A stretch of DNA of 64,000 nt from Blautia luti. Lineage in GTDB: Bacteria; Bacillota; Clostridia; Lachnospirales; Lachnospiraceae. A program made the position numbers and the translations under genes. Positions within the stretch are counted from its first letter, which is position 1; each line of letters starts with the position of its first letter. A model generated the notes under the pieces. The model saw only the letters and a list, made by a program, of their open reading frames with translations, was not told where the DNA came from and made no database searches. The DNA is taken from assembly GCF_033096465.1 (NCBI RefSeq), contig NZ_AP028156.1:35001-99000 (forward strand), read 5' to 3'. Below are positions 20,567 to 62,008 of this stretch, in pieces.

Positions 20567-20586
20567 AATAAATAGCGATGGATGAG

Positions 20587-20644
20587 GAAATCCCTTCACT
20601 TTAAGCAGAGATTGATACTGCCTGGTGGAGGGGTTCTTTTTTGC
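20587..20644 (+). terminator. Terminator of the GH42 operon
   Basis: AATCCCTTCAC pairs with GTGGAGGGGTT, with an inner CAG/CTG stem, and ends in CTTTTTT. Confidence 0.75.
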
Positions 20645-20662
20645 TCAGGAGATGTAAATGAT

Positions 20663-23600
20663 ATGATTTCGAAAACACAGATAAAATATATGTCAGGTGC
20701 TGCATCCTATGCCAGGGGTCTGGATATTTACCTGGATGGTAAAGTGCTGGATATGGATGTGCAGGATTTCGGGAGCTATGATGAGGTTGTAGCTTCTGTA
20801 AAGGGAAGCGGAAGAAATATCTATGAGGTAGATGTTTCTGTAGATAAAGAAGATAATCAGATAGACAATATTTATTGTGAGTGTCCTGCATATGGAGAGT
20901 ATGATGGAATCTGTAAGCACTGTGTAGCTGTTCTTCTGGAATATAACGAATATGCTGCAAGGCAGCAGGTGGATCCCCAAAAACTGAATCAGTTAAAAGG
21001 TGTAAAAAAGGGCATCACCATGCACACTACACCTGAACTTGCACAGCTTCTGCAGAAGCAGGCAGTTGCGAAATCTCTTCCGCTTATCCAGGGAAGCACC
21101 TATGGAAAGGTAAGACTGGAGCCGTATTTTGATTTCGATGGAAGGACATTTACAGTAGAGTTTAAAATCGGAACCAACAAGATGTATGTGTTGAAAGATG
21201 CATTTTCTTTTGATAATAATATGTCCGATCAGACCGATTACAAATATGGGAAAAATCTTCAGTTTGTTCATACCATAGAATCTTTTGATGAAGAATCCAA
21301 ACCCCTGGCGAAATTTATCTGCAAATGGGCAGATAATAACAGGCAGTTTCACAGATCATCTTCTTATTATGGATACTATATGGGAAGTCTGGAAAAAGTA
21401 CGGCATCTGGATCTGGCAGGGAATGAACTGGCAGAATTTCTCCTTCTTATGGAAGGCAGAATATTGCAGGGAGAGTCTGTAGGAACCAGAAATAAAACAT
21501 GGGAAGTAACCAGAGAACATTTGCCAAGAAAAATAACCATAACAGGTGTGAAGCAAGGCATTGAACTGAAGGTAAGCAAATTTATCTGTGCAGCACGAAC
21601 CAATCAATATAGAATCTGTTTTTTTGATAAAAAGATTTATATTGAAAATATGGAAGAACTTCTGCCGGTTAAGGATTTCCTGGACATTTTATCTCTCATA
21701 TCAGGGGAAACAGCTTTTATAGAAAATAAAGATGTACCGGCGTTTTGCCAGGAACTTTTACCGGTAATCCAGAAGTTCTTTAAATGCAGGATGGTTGAAT
21801 TTGATCCGGAGAATTATGGAATGATAAAACCTGAATTCCAGTTTTATCTGGATGCACCGCAGGAAAATATGATTACATGTGGTGCCACAGTCAGGTATGG
21901 GGATAGAGAGTTTTCATTGTATACTACAGACGATATTGCCATTCGAGATATGAATAAAGAGACAGTGGTCAGAAATGTGATCCATAAATATTCCAATGCA
22001 TTTCATCCATTTGAACAGTGTGCAGTAATTGCTGATGATGAAGAAGCGGAATATGAGTTTCTGACAGAAGGAATTCCAGCGCTGCAGGCAGTAGGTGAGG
22101 TATTTATTTCCGATGCATTGAAGCGAATTGAGGTAAGAAATTCACCGAAAATTACAGTTGGGGTTTCTTTAAGTGGAAATCTGCTGGAGCTGAGTATGAC
22201 AGCAGGGGATATGTCAAGGGAAGACCTGATCGACATTCTTTCCAGATATAATAAGAAGAAAAAGTTTTATCGTCTGAAAAATGGGGCTTTTGTAAATGCT
22301 GCAGATTCAGGTCTGGATACGGTTGAAGAACTCAGAACAGGACTTCAGCTGACTGATAAGCAGATGAAACAGGACAGGATCGAAGTACAGAAATACCGTG
22401 CGTTGTATCTGGATGCACAGTTAAAAGAGAATCCGGTTGTTTCGGCGGTGAAGGATAAATCTTTCAAGTCCCTGGTAAGAAATATGAAAACCGTTGAGGA
22501 TAATGACTTTGAAGTGCCGGAGAGTCTGGATAAGGTTTTGCGGGAGTACCAGAAGAGGGGATTTCTGTGGATCAAGACGTTGAGGCATAATGGATTTGGC
22601 GGAATACTTGCGGATGATATGGGACTGGGAAAAACGCTGCAGGTGATTGCGTTTCTGCTGTCAGAATTTCTGGAAAGAAAGAATACTGATATTGAAAACA
22701 TAACATTAAAAGAAGCTACAGTGTTAAATGTACAGAGTGAAACTAAATCTGAGACAGCAGAGGTGCAGGAAGCTGATATCGATGAGGCGATGAATGGACA
22801 AACTGGAAAACTGCAAAGAAATACATTAATTATAGCTCCTGCATCGTTGGTTTATAATTGGAGCAGTGAAATTCAACGCTTTGCACCAGAACTGACAGTG
22901 AGGATGGTAACGGGAACTGCGGCAGAGAGGAGAATGGTGCTGACTGAAGCTGGGACGGAGGATATTCTTCTGACTTCGTATGATCTGCTGAAGAGAGACA
23001 TCAGTGAATATGAAAAGTATCAGTTCCAGTGTGAAATTATAGATGAAGCTCAGTATATCAAGAATGCCAATACCCAGGCTGCGAAAGCCGTAAAAGAGGT
23101 TCAGGCAGAATTTAAACTGGCGCTTACGGGAACTCCGGTGGAGAATCGTCTGAGTGAGTTATGGAGCATATTTGATTATCTGATGCCAGGTTTTCTTTAC
23201 AGTTATAAGAAGTTCCGTGAGGAGGTAGAAATTCCGGCAGTTCAGAATTCTGATGAAGATGCCATGAAACGTCTGCAGAAGATGATTCGGCCGTTTGTGC
23301 TTCGAAGACTGAAAAAAGAAGTGCTTACGGATCTGCCTGATAAGCTGGAAGAGAATATGTTTGTACAGCTTACAGGAGAACAGCAGAAGCTTTATGATGC
23401 ACATGTAAAGCGTATGATGCTGATGTTGGATAAACAGTCGGAAGAAGAATTTAAGACTTCAAAGATTACAATTCTGGCAGAGCTGACCAAACTGCGCCAG
23501 ATTTGTTGTGATCCATCACTGGTTTTCGCAGATTATAAAGCTGATTCTGCGAAGACAGAGATGTGTCTGAATATGATCTGCAATGCAGTGGCGAGCGGAC

Positions 23601-24061
23601 ATAAGATTCTGCTGTTTTCCCAGTTTACAACGATGCTTGACCACCTTGCGAATCGTCTTGAAGAAGAGAAAATCAGCTATTATATGCTGACCGGCGCTAC
23701 AAGCAAAGAGAAGCGTGCACAGATGGTGGAAAGTTTTAATAATGATGATACCCAGGTATTCTGTATTTCCCTGAAAGCAGGAGGAACCGGGCTGAATCTG
23801 ACTGCGGCGGATATTGTGATCCATTTTGATCCGTGGTGGAATCTGGCAGTACAAAATCAGGCTACAGACAGAGCACACAGGATCGGGCAGAAGAATGTAG
23901 TGAATGTGTATAAGCTGATTGTGAAAGATACCATCGAGGAAAATATCATGAAGCTGCAGGAAAAGAAGCGTGAGCTGGCGGATCAGATTCTGGAAGGAGA
24001 AGGACTCAATGGCAGCAGTCTTACCAGAGAGGAACTGATGGAATTGCTTTCCGGCAAATAG
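20663..24061 (+). CDS. SWIM zinc-finger SNF2 helicase
   Basis: Start set at ATG 20663 after AGGAGA; the frame is open from 20582 but that part covers the terminator. The 1132-residue protein has an N-terminal SWIM zinc finger (C72, C74, C84, H86), a long middle region of the bacterial SNF2-associated type (about 100-600), then the SNF2 motor: Walker A DDMGLGKT (about 651-658), DEAQ box at 794-797, and helicase C with GTGLNLTAADIVIHFDPWWN and the arginine-finger motif QATDRAHRIGQ. A low-complexity insertion follows Walker A (about 675-710). Such proteins move along duplex DNA or remodel DNA-bound proteins (RapA-like); the exact bacterial role is unknown. Single-gene unit. Confidence 0.93.
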   Translation: MISKTQIKYMSGAASYARGLDIYLDGKVLDMDVQDFGSYDEVVASVKGSGRNIYEVDVSVDKEDNQIDNIYCECPAYGEYDGICKHCVAVLLEYNEYAARQQVDPQKLNQLKGVKKGITMHTTPELAQLLQKQAVAKSLPLIQGSTYGKVRLEPYFDFDGRTFTVEFKIGTNKMYVLKDAFSFDNNMSDQTDYKYGKNLQFVHTIESFDEESKPLAKFICKWADNNRQFHRSSSYYGYYMGSLEKVRHLDLAGNELAEFLLLMEGRILQGESVGTRNKTWEVTREHLPRKITITGVKQGIELKVSKFICAARTNQYRICFFDKKIYIENMEELLPVKDFLDILSLISGETAFIENKDVPAFCQELLPVIQKFFKCRMVEFDPENYGMIKPEFQFYLDAPQENMITCGATVRYGDREFSLYTTDDIAIRDMNKETVVRNVIHKYSNAFHPFEQCAVIADDEEAEYEFLTEGIPALQAVGEVFISDALKRIEVRNSPKITVGVSLSGNLLELSMTAGDMSREDLIDILSRYNKKKKFYRLKNGAFVNAADSGLDTVEELRTGLQLTDKQMKQDRIEVQKYRALYLDAQLKENPVVSAVKDKSFKSLVRNMKTVEDNDFEVPESLDKVLREYQKRGFLWIKTLRHNGFGGILADDMGLGKTLQVIAFLLSEFLERKNTDIENITLKEATVLNVQSETKSETAEVQEADIDEAMNGQTGKLQRNTLIIAPASLVYNWSSEIQRFAPELTVRMVTGTAAERRMVLTEAGTEDILLTSYDLLKRDISEYEKYQFQCEIIDEAQYIKNANTQAAKAVKEVQAEFKLALTGTPVENRLSELWSIFDYLMPGFLYSYKKFREEVEIPAVQNSDEDAMKRLQKMIRPFVLRRLKKEVLTDLPDKLEENMFVQLTGEQQKLYDAHVKRMMLMLDKQSEEEFKTSKITILAELTKLRQICCDPSLVFADYKADSAKTEMCLNMICNAVASGHKILLFSQFTTMLDHLANRLEEEKISYYMLTGATSKEKRAQMVESFNNDDTQVFCISLKAGGTGLNLTAADIVIHFDPWWNLAVQNQATDRAHRIGQKNVVNVYKLIVKDTIEENIMKLQEKKRELADQILEGEGLNGSSLTREELMELLSGK

Positions 24062-24135
24062 CATTTATTTGGCGTAAAACCGCGTAGCGAAGTGCGAAGA
24101 TCCGCAGGATTGACATTTTTTGTAAATATAAAGAT

Positions 24136-37515: not shown

Positions 37516-37544
37516 TTGAAAATAGAATCAGGGAGAATTATAAT
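37516..37544 (+). promoter_or_regulatory. nagB promoter
   Basis: TTGAAA at 37516-37521 and TATAAT at 37539-37544 with a 17-base spacer. It places the repeated structured element at 37557 inside the transcribed leader. Confidence 0.75.
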
Positions 37545-37556
37545 TGATTTGTAGTA

Positions 37557-37613
37557 AACTGCAGAGCAGTTATCTGATTATGGGTAAGCAGCAAAGCAGA
37601 TAAAATTATCTGT
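37557..37613 (+). repeat. Structured leader repeat, copy A (before nagB)
   Basis: Matches the sequence at 61946-62008: ACTGC-AGA-GCAGT hairpin, then TTATCTGATTATGGGTAAG, CAGCAAAGC and the closing hairpin CAGATA-AAAT-TATCTG. The last stem differs in sequence from copy B but keeps its pairing. Confidence 0.7.
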
Positions 37614-37649
37614 CTTGCATAACAATAAAATACAAAAAGGAGAGGGATT

Positions 37650-58519: not shown

Positions 58520-58655
58520 CACTGAAATGTTAATACAAATATGTACGGATACGTTAGTCCGAAATTTACGCCTATGGAGAGTACAAGAACTTGTGAGTAG
58601 ATTGATATTTATAGCATCAAAAGCATACTCGTTGAAGTAGGAATGGAACATAGAA
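58520..58655 (+). ncRNA. IS607 right end, probable omega RNA scaffold
   Basis: Directly after tnpB: hairpin CGGA-TACGTTAG-TCCG, then ACAAG-AA-CTTGT, and the closing GCATACTCGTTGAAGTAGG segment. By analogy with other TnpB elements this region should give the guide RNA scaffold, with the flank toward 58701 as guide. Exact ends are uncertain. Confidence 0.5.
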
Positions 58656-58700: not shown

Positions 58701-59915
58701 ATGAAATACGATTTTACATCAATCATAGACAGACACAATATGGATGCCATTGCAGTAGATGGATTGGGGAATGGACAAATGAGTCCTGGGAAACCGAAGG
58801 AGGGATTTGACATCATTCCAATGTGGGTAGCAGATATGAATTTTCCTACAGTGCCGACCATTCCGGAAGCAATCATCGAGCGTGCGAAGCATCCGGCGTA
58901 TGGATATTTTGCGCCAAGAGAAGAATATTTTCAGTCGATCATTGACTGGCAGACGAAGAGAAATGGTGTGACAGGACTGACCAAGGAACATATTGGTTAT
59001 GAAAACGGTGTGCTGGGATGCGTCGTTTCTGCACTGACAGCTTTCGCAGCACCGGGGGATGCGGTACTGCTTCACAGTCCGACTTATATAGGTTTTACCG
59101 GGTGTATTGGAAACAATGGATTTAAGATGATCCACAGTCCATTAAGGAAAGATGAAAATGGAATCTGGCGAATGGATTTCGAAGATATGGATGCGAAGAT
59201 TAAAGCTAATAGCATTCATGTGGCAGTATTTTGCAGCCCTCATAATCCTTGCGGACGAGTATGGGAGAAGTGGGAAATCGAGAAAGCAATGGAAGTTTAT
59301 AAGGCAAATGACTGCGTTGTAATTTCTGATGAGATCTGGTCAGATCTGATCTTGGATGGCTATAAACATATACCGACTCAGTCTGTAAGTGAGGATGCCA
59401 GAAACAGGACAATTGCCGTTTATGCTCCGAGCAAGACATTTAATCTGGCAGGCCTGGTTGGTAGTTACCATATCATTTATAACAAATATCTCCGTGACAG
59501 AGTTGTAGCAAAGAGCAGCAAGCCGCATTACAATGAAATGAACGTTTTGTCCATGCATGCGTTGATCGGAGCGTATAAACCAGAGGGCTATGAGTGGGTA
59601 GATGAGCTTCGCCAGGCACTGACTGGAAATGTGTATTATGCCTGCAATTATATCAAAGAGCATTTCAAAGGCGTAGAAGTCAGCAGACCGCAGGGAACGT
59701 ATATGCTGTTTCTGGACTGCACGAAATGGTGTGAAGAACACGGAAAGAGTATTGATGAAGTGGAGAAAGCAGGTTGGGATGTTGGTGTTGCATGGCAGGA
59801 CGGAAGAATGTTCCTGCATCCGTGTGCAATTCGTATGAATCTGGCACTGCCGCTCAGCAGAGTGCAGGAAGCATTTGACAGACTGGATAAATATGTGTTC
59901 AATGCAGAAAAATAG
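58701..59915 (+). CDS. MalY/PatB-type PLP-dependent C-S lyase
   Basis: A 404-residue fold-type I aminotransferase of the PatB/MalY group, cleaving cystathionine or other cysteine S-conjugates. Features: IPMWVADMNFPTVPTI near the start, PLP-contacting SPHNPCGRVW, Asp and Tyr in VISDEIWSDL, and the PLP lysine in YAPSKTFNLAGL. AAAGGAC precedes the ATG. The IS607 right end lies only about 45 bases upstream, so the original promoter region has probably been replaced or separated. Confidence 0.92.
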   Translation: MKYDFTSIIDRHNMDAIAVDGLGNGQMSPGKPKEGFDIIPMWVADMNFPTVPTIPEAIIERAKHPAYGYFAPREEYFQSIIDWQTKRNGVTGLTKEHIGYENGVLGCVVSALTAFAAPGDAVLLHSPTYIGFTGCIGNNGFKMIHSPLRKDENGIWRMDFEDMDAKIKANSIHVAVFCSPHNPCGRVWEKWEIEKAMEVYKANDCVVISDEIWSDLILDGYKHIPTQSVSEDARNRTIAVYAPSKTFNLAGLVGSYHIIYNKYLRDRVVAKSSKPHYNEMNVLSMHALIGAYKPEGYEWVDELRQALTGNVYYACNYIKEHFKGVEVSRPQGTYMLFLDCTKWCEEHGKSIDEVEKAGWDVGVAWQDGRMFLHPCAIRMNLALPLSRVQEAFDRLDKYVFNAEK

Positions 59916-61154: not shown

Positions 61155-61850
61155 GTGGCGAATATTCTGGTCTGCGATGACGATAAGGACATCGTAGAAG
61201 CAATCAGTATTTATCTGGAGCAGGAAGGATATACGATTTTTAAAGCATATGACGGTCTGGACGCAATCAATATATTGCACAGTCAGCCGGTGGATCTGCT
61301 GATCATAGATATTATGATGCCGAAGCTGGATGGCATTCGGGCTACTTTGAAGATAAGGGAAGAGAATCCTCTTCCGATCATTATTCTTTCTGCGAAATCA
61401 GAGGATGCAGATAAGATCCTTGGATTAAATGTAGGTGCAGACGATTATGTGACAAAACCTTTTAATCCGCTGGAACTGGTGGCAAGGGTGAAATCACAGC
61501 TTCGAAGATATACAAGACTGGGAGCAGCAATACCTGTGGAGAATGCTCATATCTACGAGACAGGAGGTCTGAGCATAAACGATGACCTGAAGGAAGTCAG
61601 GGTAGACGGTGATGTAGTGAAGCTGACACCTATTGAGTACAATATCCTTCTTCTACTGATGAAGAATCAGGGAAGGGTATTTTCCATTAATCAGATTTAC
61701 GAAAACATCTGGAATGAGGAAGCAGTTGCTGCAGATAATACAGTGGCAGTGCATATCCGGCATATCAGAGAAAAAATTGAGATTAATCCAAGAGAACCAA
61801 GATACCTGAAAGTTGTGTGGGGACTTGGATATAAGGTGGAAAAAATTTAA
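61155..61850 (+). CDS. OmpR-family response regulator
   Basis: Start set at GTG 61155 after GAGGGAGG; the frame is open from 61116. The 231-residue protein has a receiver domain (about 1-120) with acidic pocket CDDD, phosphorylated D52 in LIIDIMMPKLDG, and signalling Lys in VTKPFNPLELV, then an OmpR-type winged helix (about 130-230; TPIEYNILLLLM, VHIRHIREKIEINP). Its partner is the histidine kinase 200 bases downstream. The layout resembles VanR/VanS-like pairs of Clostridia; the signal is unknown. Confidence 0.93.
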   Translation: MANILVCDDDKDIVEAISIYLEQEGYTIFKAYDGLDAINILHSQPVDLLIIDIMMPKLDGIRATLKIREENPLPIIILSAKSEDADKILGLNVGADDYVTKPFNPLELVARVKSQLRRYTRLGAAIPVENAHIYETGGLSINDDLKEVRVDGDVVKLTPIEYNILLLLMKNQGRVFSINQIYENIWNEEAVAADNTVAVHIRHIREKIEINPREPRYLKVVWGLGYKVEKI

Positions 61851-61861
61851 CCAAATCAAGT

Positions 61862-61910
61862 AAGTCCCCTGCTTCAATTGCGAAAAGCAATAAGCAGTGG
61901 GTGGGGACTT
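61862..61910 (+). other. Long hairpin after the response regulator gene
   Basis: AAGTCCCC pairs with GGGGACTT, with inner TGCTT/AAGCA and ATTGC/GCAAT stems. No U-run follows. It may weaken read-through into the kinase gene or stabilise the upstream mRNA. Confidence 0.55.
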
Positions 61911-61945
61911 GCTTGTATCAGGAGGCGTGCAAGCGCATTCTGATA

Positions 61946-62008
61946 AACTGCGAAGCAGTTATTTGGTTATGAGCAAGTAGCAAAGCGGATTGCGAATATC
62001 CGCTTGAC
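61946..62008 (+). repeat. Structured leader repeat, copy B (before the histidine kinase)
   Basis: Near-copy of 37557-37613: ACTGC-GAA-GCAGT hairpin, TTATTTGGTTATGAGCAAG, TAGCAAAGC, then GCGGAT...ATCCGC. It ends about 40 bases before the kinase ATG. Confidence 0.7.

Follow-up and report, generated by a model that had tools for sequence, protein, structure and literature searches.

The window analysed here is a stretch of 64,000 nucleotides of the Blautia luti genome (contig NZ_AP028156.1, positions 35,001 to 99,000 of the forward strand), in which a structured repeat occurs in the leader of nagB (copy A) and at the site between a response-regulator gene and a histidine kinase gene (copy B). 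At both places the repeat is one and the same dispersed, intergenic element. Two models of the repeat are referred to below, namely R1, which contains copies A and B and not a third, weaker place, and R2, which was built from 42 full copies, with copy B included and copy A left out. The main features, all on the forward strand, are the following.

24052..24109, + strand: a probable third copy, in degenerate form, that overlaps the end of the open reading frame (ORF) at 20582-24061; 25.6 bits with R1.
37516..37544, + strand: promoter-like sequence of nagB, TTGAAA-17-TATAAT, the -10 box of which is also found in relatives without the element.
37552..37618, + strand: copy A, a short and diverged form without arms P2 and P3, in the nagB leader; 67.9 bits with R1, a model that contains it.
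61846..62007 (62008 if the final C is counted), + strand: copy B, a full-length element; 187.3 bits and E 1e-47 with R2, a model that contains it.

A sequence-only reading of the window had drawn attention to about 60 bases that align strongly between the two places. This likeness is above chance, as R2 recovers copy A in the window with an E-value of 2.3e-4; the 12-base core alone, at two or fewer mismatches, is not enriched in the window (13 occurrences against a shuffle mean of 10.7). The ACTGC/GCAGT hairpins and the AAGYAGCAAAGC core lie where they had been placed, and the stretch at 61946 is present, but the real unit is larger: the element measures 162 nt and begins at 61846, and these bases form its 3' end. 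Likewise, the pairing of the last hairpin, which had been offered as covarying between copies A and B, had been shifted by one base: aligned as in A2, the hairpin contains a G-C pair replaced by A-U, with both sides changed, a G-C pair that becomes G-U and an A-C mismatch, whereas strong covariation is found in the arms upstream. As to the weaker relative suggested near 24086-24115, it is detected by R1, in which this place had no part, at E=7.4e-5, but by R2 only at E=1.2; positions 24052-24109 are probably a third copy. None of the three places has a match in Rfam at the gathering scores, and the weak Rfam matches below these scores failed to hold up, with the exception of RF01699. The window also harbours a RAGATH-18 RNA at 58571-58643 (73.4 bits; gathering score 44.9), just 5' of the ORF at 58701.

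Copy A does lie inside the nagB leader, downstream of the TTGAAA-17-TATAAT promoter, and its position between this promoter and the start codon speaks for a dedicated, riboswitch-like cis-regulatory leader of nagB and the kinase gene. We nevertheless consider such a leader barely credible, since none of 29 other nagB loci has an R1 match at E<=1 in its leader, the -10 box is retained without the element in the close relatives G030, G045, G024 and G066, copy B is intercistronic, and dozens of copies lie elsewhere. The four weak R1 matches at the 29 other loci (E 0.14 to 0.53) are located downstream of nagB or at its 3' end. Hence, of the two options left by the sequence-only reading, a leader-specific regulatory element is not supported, its conservation with the gene in relatives being absent, and a dispersed intergenic repeat is, with copies throughout the B. 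luti genome and its relatives. What appears to be a leader element in a common gut genus is explained in this way as a dispersed repeat. A second NagB-like gene, 92% identical, is encoded in the same genome (G000:C1:229324-230061).

Copy B is 162 nt long; it opens with TTTAACC, where the response-regulator gene has its stop codon, and closes with CTTGA(C). The kinase site was compared among 30 orthologous loci, four of which were unreadable. Among the 26 readable ones, the long form is present in B. luti and a short form of about 45 nt in G030, G045 and G066; the element is not visible in the remaining 22.

The repeat is abundant in its own genome and is found well beyond it. A BLAST search of the 3.74-Mb genome with copy B returned at least 41 matches at E<=10, of which 29 reach E<=1e-3; the matches listed, the best 40 of 47 candidates, do not include copy A. 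The full model gave at least 39 matches at E<=0.05 among the best 150 of 934 candidates, eight of them above 129 bits and one of them, at 2689912 (L075), a short form resembling RF01699. The 162-nt form occurs in 28 of 60 genomes of the same genus, own genome included, where copy numbers per genome are lower bounds, no more than about 14 candidates having been scored in each; the best matches are 97-99% identical in six others (G066, G049, G045, G059, G004 and G030). In a same-family set with one genome per genus and stricter filters, 35 of 150 genomes, again with the own one, contain model matches. A scan of named genomes for the exact core pattern yielded at least 80 loci, those listed belonging to Blautia luti, B. 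wexlerae, B. schinkii and B. massiliensis as well as to Eubacterium ramulus, Lacrimispora celerecrescens, Catenibacillus scindens, Faecalicatena contorta and Hespellia stercorisuis. Several copies are located at contig ends, as is typical of repeats, and the neighbouring ORFs vary between sites. Polymorphic copies of this kind could be of use as markers for distinguishing species and strains.

Copies of the left part also occur in tandem, at L122 5134-5493 (with a spacing of 98 bases) and at L118 5157-5669, with few ORFs around them; an array of this type is located in G059 upstream of a gene that we take to be ParA-like, and related copies are found at the matching place in G003. Furthermore, the repeat is matched in ten unannotated 'Bacteriophage sp.' records from human faeces (MT838429, MT835578 and eight others), which may reflect carriage by prophages or bacterial contamination.

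The fold of the full element is best described on copy B, the parts of which are listed below.

61848..61856, + strand: 5' strand of P1 (TAACCAAAT), which closes a four-way junction; from the fold, helix 1 (biased).
61857..61915, + strand: arm P2 (CAAGTAAGTCCCCTGC...GGGGACTTGCTTG); from the fold, helices 2-3.
61916..61945, + strand: arm P3 (TATCAG...CTGATA); from the fold, helix 4.
61946..61960, + strand: arm P4 (AACTGC-GAA-GCAGTT), the ACTGC/GCAGT hairpin of the sequence-only reading; from the fold, helices 5-6.
61961..61969, + strand: 3' strand of P1 (ATTTGGTTA); from the fold and covariation.
61970..61999, + strand: core arm common to RF01699, GA-GCAA-GTA-GC-AAA-GC-GGA-TTGC-GA-AT; from the comparison with RF01699 and RNAalifold.
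61983..62005, + strand: alternative 3' hairpin P5, AAGCGGAT/ATCCGCTT, 2 nt 3' of GTAG; from the fold.

Two full copies are predicted to form a tight four-way junction of P1 to P4 with zero unpaired bases between the helices (-70.1 and -77.7 kcal/mol), followed on the 3' side by the core arm and the alternative hairpin P5, which are mutually exclusive. Because the structure that RNAalifold derived from a short alignment was poor, R2 was built from the full copies with the stated structure; applied to the full copies, RNAalifold independently gives P1-P4 and the core arm. The underlying alignment, A3, consists of 35 copies kept from 80 loci, which had to be long enough, to have a TTAA left end and to pair in P1 at six or more of eight positions, together with seven of the eight full copies of the own genome (L011 was left out). 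In these 42 full copies from several genera, 41 of them distinct, 95.5% of 2399 pair cells pair, while slid controls pair at 37-43%. Changes on both sides are seen in 21 of 59 pairs and amount to 198 cells against 52.7 in shuffles, a number reached by 0 of 500 shuffles. Arms P2-P4, where pairing was not a selection criterion, contribute 19 of 42 pairs with such changes; the figure for P1 (two of nine) is biased, as copies were required to pair there, and helix 7 (P5) has no pair changed on both sides. The P1 variants recognised by eye are AACCGAAT/ATTCGGTT, AACCTCAT/ATGAGGTT, AACCAAAT/ATTTGGTT and AACACTA/TAGTGTT. The covariation for which the sequence-only reading had proposed a test is thus strong (198 against 52.7 cells), yet it is a property of a dispersed family and not of a nagB regulator. 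A mobile repeat can covary strongly, and a covarying leader need not be a riboswitch. On the given strand, G-U cells outnumber A-C cells (92 to 25, 53 to 24 without two columns, and 26 to 15 when counted by columns), an excess that gives modest support to this strand as the one that folds.

Pairing that is asymmetric between the strands, with G-U above A-C, and covariation across genera are also what would be expected if the repeat were a structured RNA acting where it is inserted, co-transcribed with the adjoining gene and under selection at the RNA level, with the junction and the core arm binding a protein or protecting the mRNA. Two further points agree with this explanation: the core arm, with its GA/GA and GUA/GGA internal loops, is common to the candidate RNA RF01699, and 10 of 40 left ends fall exactly on the stop codon that terminates an ORF at least 190 codons long, though 4 of these 10 represent one orthologous response-regulator site in four genomes. 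It is opposed by the presence or absence of copies between sister species, by copies oriented against both flanking genes (in G003, G037 and G045) and by the shorter forms at orthologous sites, and we regard it as unlikely.

The ends and insertion sites of the element bear on its mobility. The full element has the fixed ends TTTAAC ... CTTGAC over its 162 nt. At the right end TTGA is found in 39 of the 42 full copies and is followed by C in 32 of the 39, after which no base is fixed; the left flanks are A/T-rich before TTTAA, the left ends having been picked by a TTAA motif. The flanks of nine own copies were searched for in six relatives, and ten comparisons, at five sites, were aligned. A clean empty allele was found at one of the five; the others hold shorter forms or are ambiguous. 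The filled site in the own genome reads CCAGTT[TAACCG...GCTTGAC]TAATTAAATATG, and the empty site in sister species reads CCGGTTTAATTAAATATG (G030) and CCTGTATAATTAAATATG (G066), with 11 extra bases at the same site in G045; judged from the aligned alleles, this is a precise insertion, save for a 3-nt TAA ambiguity.

Because of the dispersal, the sharp ends, the one clean empty allele and the differences in presence and length between species, we favour mobility as the explanation. In Blautia and related genera the repeat is probably a mobile, non-autonomous element of the intergenic regions, with a putative HUH-type movement in trans as folded single-stranded DNA (ssDNA). Such a repeat would spread by precise insertion, and the insertions would then decay in place through the loss of whole arms, which, if the change runs from long to short, would leave short forms such as copy A. 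The moving form would be folded ssDNA with hairpins recognised in trans, the likeliest enzyme being a Y1 (HUH) transposase of the IS200/IS605 or REP type, and any effects on neighbouring genes would be incidental.

The distribution of Y1 hits (E<1e-30) is in keeping with such a transposase: genomes in which the element has 12 matches or more nearly all have one (14 of 15), against 4 of 13 of those with one to three matches and 3 of 32 of those with none. The difference between genomes with at least 12 matches and those with none is significant by Fisher's test (p=2.7e-8), with kinship uncorrected and the counts per genome being lower bounds. However, none of the 21 Y1 loci compared carries the ends of the element, so that ends common to an autonomous IS200/IS605 relative are not seen, and visual inspection of the Y1 loci in the own genome showed no flanking repeats. 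Six RAYT-like loci lack a recognisable adjoining copy, the sole matches being one of 15 nt in L364 and one of 25 nt (84% identity) in L366, the latter about 345 nt 5' of the Y1 gene. Nor was an autonomous version, with a gene between the left and right halves, recognised from the listed ORFs among clustered copies. In G059, a 39-nt copy of the left part (L186 3211-3249, 92%) lies outside an IS200/IS605-type locus, at about 75 nt from its right end. In L363 and L364, on two contigs of G009, the RAYT-like Y1 genes directly adjoin genes that are presumably ComM-like and DprA-like.

A leading-strand bias, at first counted as HUH evidence (30 of 30, p ~2e-4), was rejected, as it relied on a terminus placed by the elements themselves. 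With the terminus taken from GC skew (about 1.69 to 1.87 Mb), 37 of 39 matches lie on the leading strand, compared with 97 of 105 ORFs of at least 180 aa (p=0.73) and with 123 of 143 ORFs of at least 120 aa (p=0.17); L046 and L047, copies from the pattern search only, are on the lagging side. Since the bias is no stronger than that of genes, the argument was dropped, and the lagging-template bias beyond that of genes that would mark an IS200/IS605 member is not observed.

The fixed CTTGAC 3' end with variable sequence after it, together with IS200/IS605-type loci in the same genomes, would also suit an orphan guide-RNA scaffold of a TnpB/IscB-type nuclease, that is, a fixed structured scaffold followed by a variable 3' sequence. 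The right ends of the IS loci examined are unlike those of the element, however, and we hold this origin to be very improbable.

The core arm was tested against RF01699 (Clostridiales-1) because the A3 copies from other genomes had been obtained with the exact core pattern. Copy B scores 17.6 bits and L003 21.8 bits with RF01699, both below its gathering score of 48 bits, and the stretch over which L003 aligns with RF01699 includes the core arm. Alignment A4 was drawn from 22 loci, of which L072 and L073 (a repeated segment) and L084 (misfit to the pattern) were dropped, and comprises two copies of the repeat and 19 hits of the RF01699 model, with L075 below the gathering score. In A4, 93.8% of the cells pair and 6 of 10 pairs are changed on both sides, a count biased towards the core arm, as the 19 hits were found by a model that contains it; one pair displays four Watson-Crick types over 21 of 21 sequences. 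In this alignment the arm is a covarying helix with conserved GA/GA and GNA/GGA loops, as in RF01699.

Of 21 genomes searched, nine contain RF01699 above its threshold, every one of them from the same genus; G012 has 25 matches over the gathering score, and at E<=10 a single genome has as many as 40. It is a candidate RNA, entered in a listing of Weinberg 2010 (PMC2864571) for 'Clostridiales, human gut' with the codes y/n/n. Our analysis presents it as a multicopy family, dispersed in Blautia, that has a recognition-like core in common with a second family, and the core arm ties an unexplained candidate RNA to a mobile-repeat family. In four RF01699 copies (L056, L057, L059 and L060), a TTTTGACCCC-type sequence follows that is complementary to the start and resembles terminal inverted repeats. 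We tentatively raise the possibility, less likely than the mobility of the repeat itself, that the repeat and RF01699 belong, as two branches, to a single mobile superfamily, the core arm of which would be recognised in trans as RNA or ssDNA. If so, this kind of element would be distinct from REPs, MITEs and IS200/IS605 derivatives.

Among the systems already known, RF01699 resembles the repeat in being multicopy in Blautia, in its multi-arm fold and in having the same core arm with GA/GA and GNA/GGA loops; it differs in its remaining arms and its ends, and the repeat scores below the RF01699 gathering score. Similar to REP/REPIN/BIME elements, the repeat is intergenic, multicopy and mosaic, with a hairpin preceded by GTAG; it is much longer (162 nt for the full element, against about 21-65 nt for REPs), and has a four-way junction, and among the loci compared no RAYT gene flanked by copies was seen. 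Four-way junctions and G-A-rich loops are unusual for REPs. In copy B the REP tag, GTAG or GTGG at 0-2 nt 5' of a hairpin, is present as GTAG-CA-AAGCGGAT/ATCCGCTT; copy A reads GCAG. The definition of REPs by GTAG/GTGG before a hairpin is that of PMC6006769, and the main text of a survey of GTAG repeats (PMC3733652) contains none of the terms Clostridi-, Firmicutes, Lachnospir-, Blautia, Eubacterium and Ruminococcus. In the open literature of PubMed Central, interspersed repeats of Lachnospiraceae and four-way-junction repeats yielded no paper, and the titles and opening lines of abstracts listed for Clostridiales-1 and RF01699, REP and RAYT, Blautia repeats and MITEs with Lachnospiraceae do not describe the repeat either.

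Like non-autonomous elements derived from IS200/IS605, the repeat has fixed ends with hairpins close to them, shares its genomes with Y1 genes and shows no constant target duplication, but its ends differ from those of the IS copies examined; as to an IS200/IS605-like target, there are the one clean empty site with its 3-nt TAA ambiguity and the TTTAA left boundary, at ends picked by TTAA. Classical MITEs are likewise small, non-coding, dispersed and polymorphic. Compared with them, the repeat has terminal inverted repeats of only about TCAAG/CTTGA and right flanks without a constant duplication of the left target, so that the MITE combination of terminal inverted repeats and a target-site duplication of constant length is absent. 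The repeat is a new family of a broad kind already known; its fold is unusual, and its core arm links it to RF01699.
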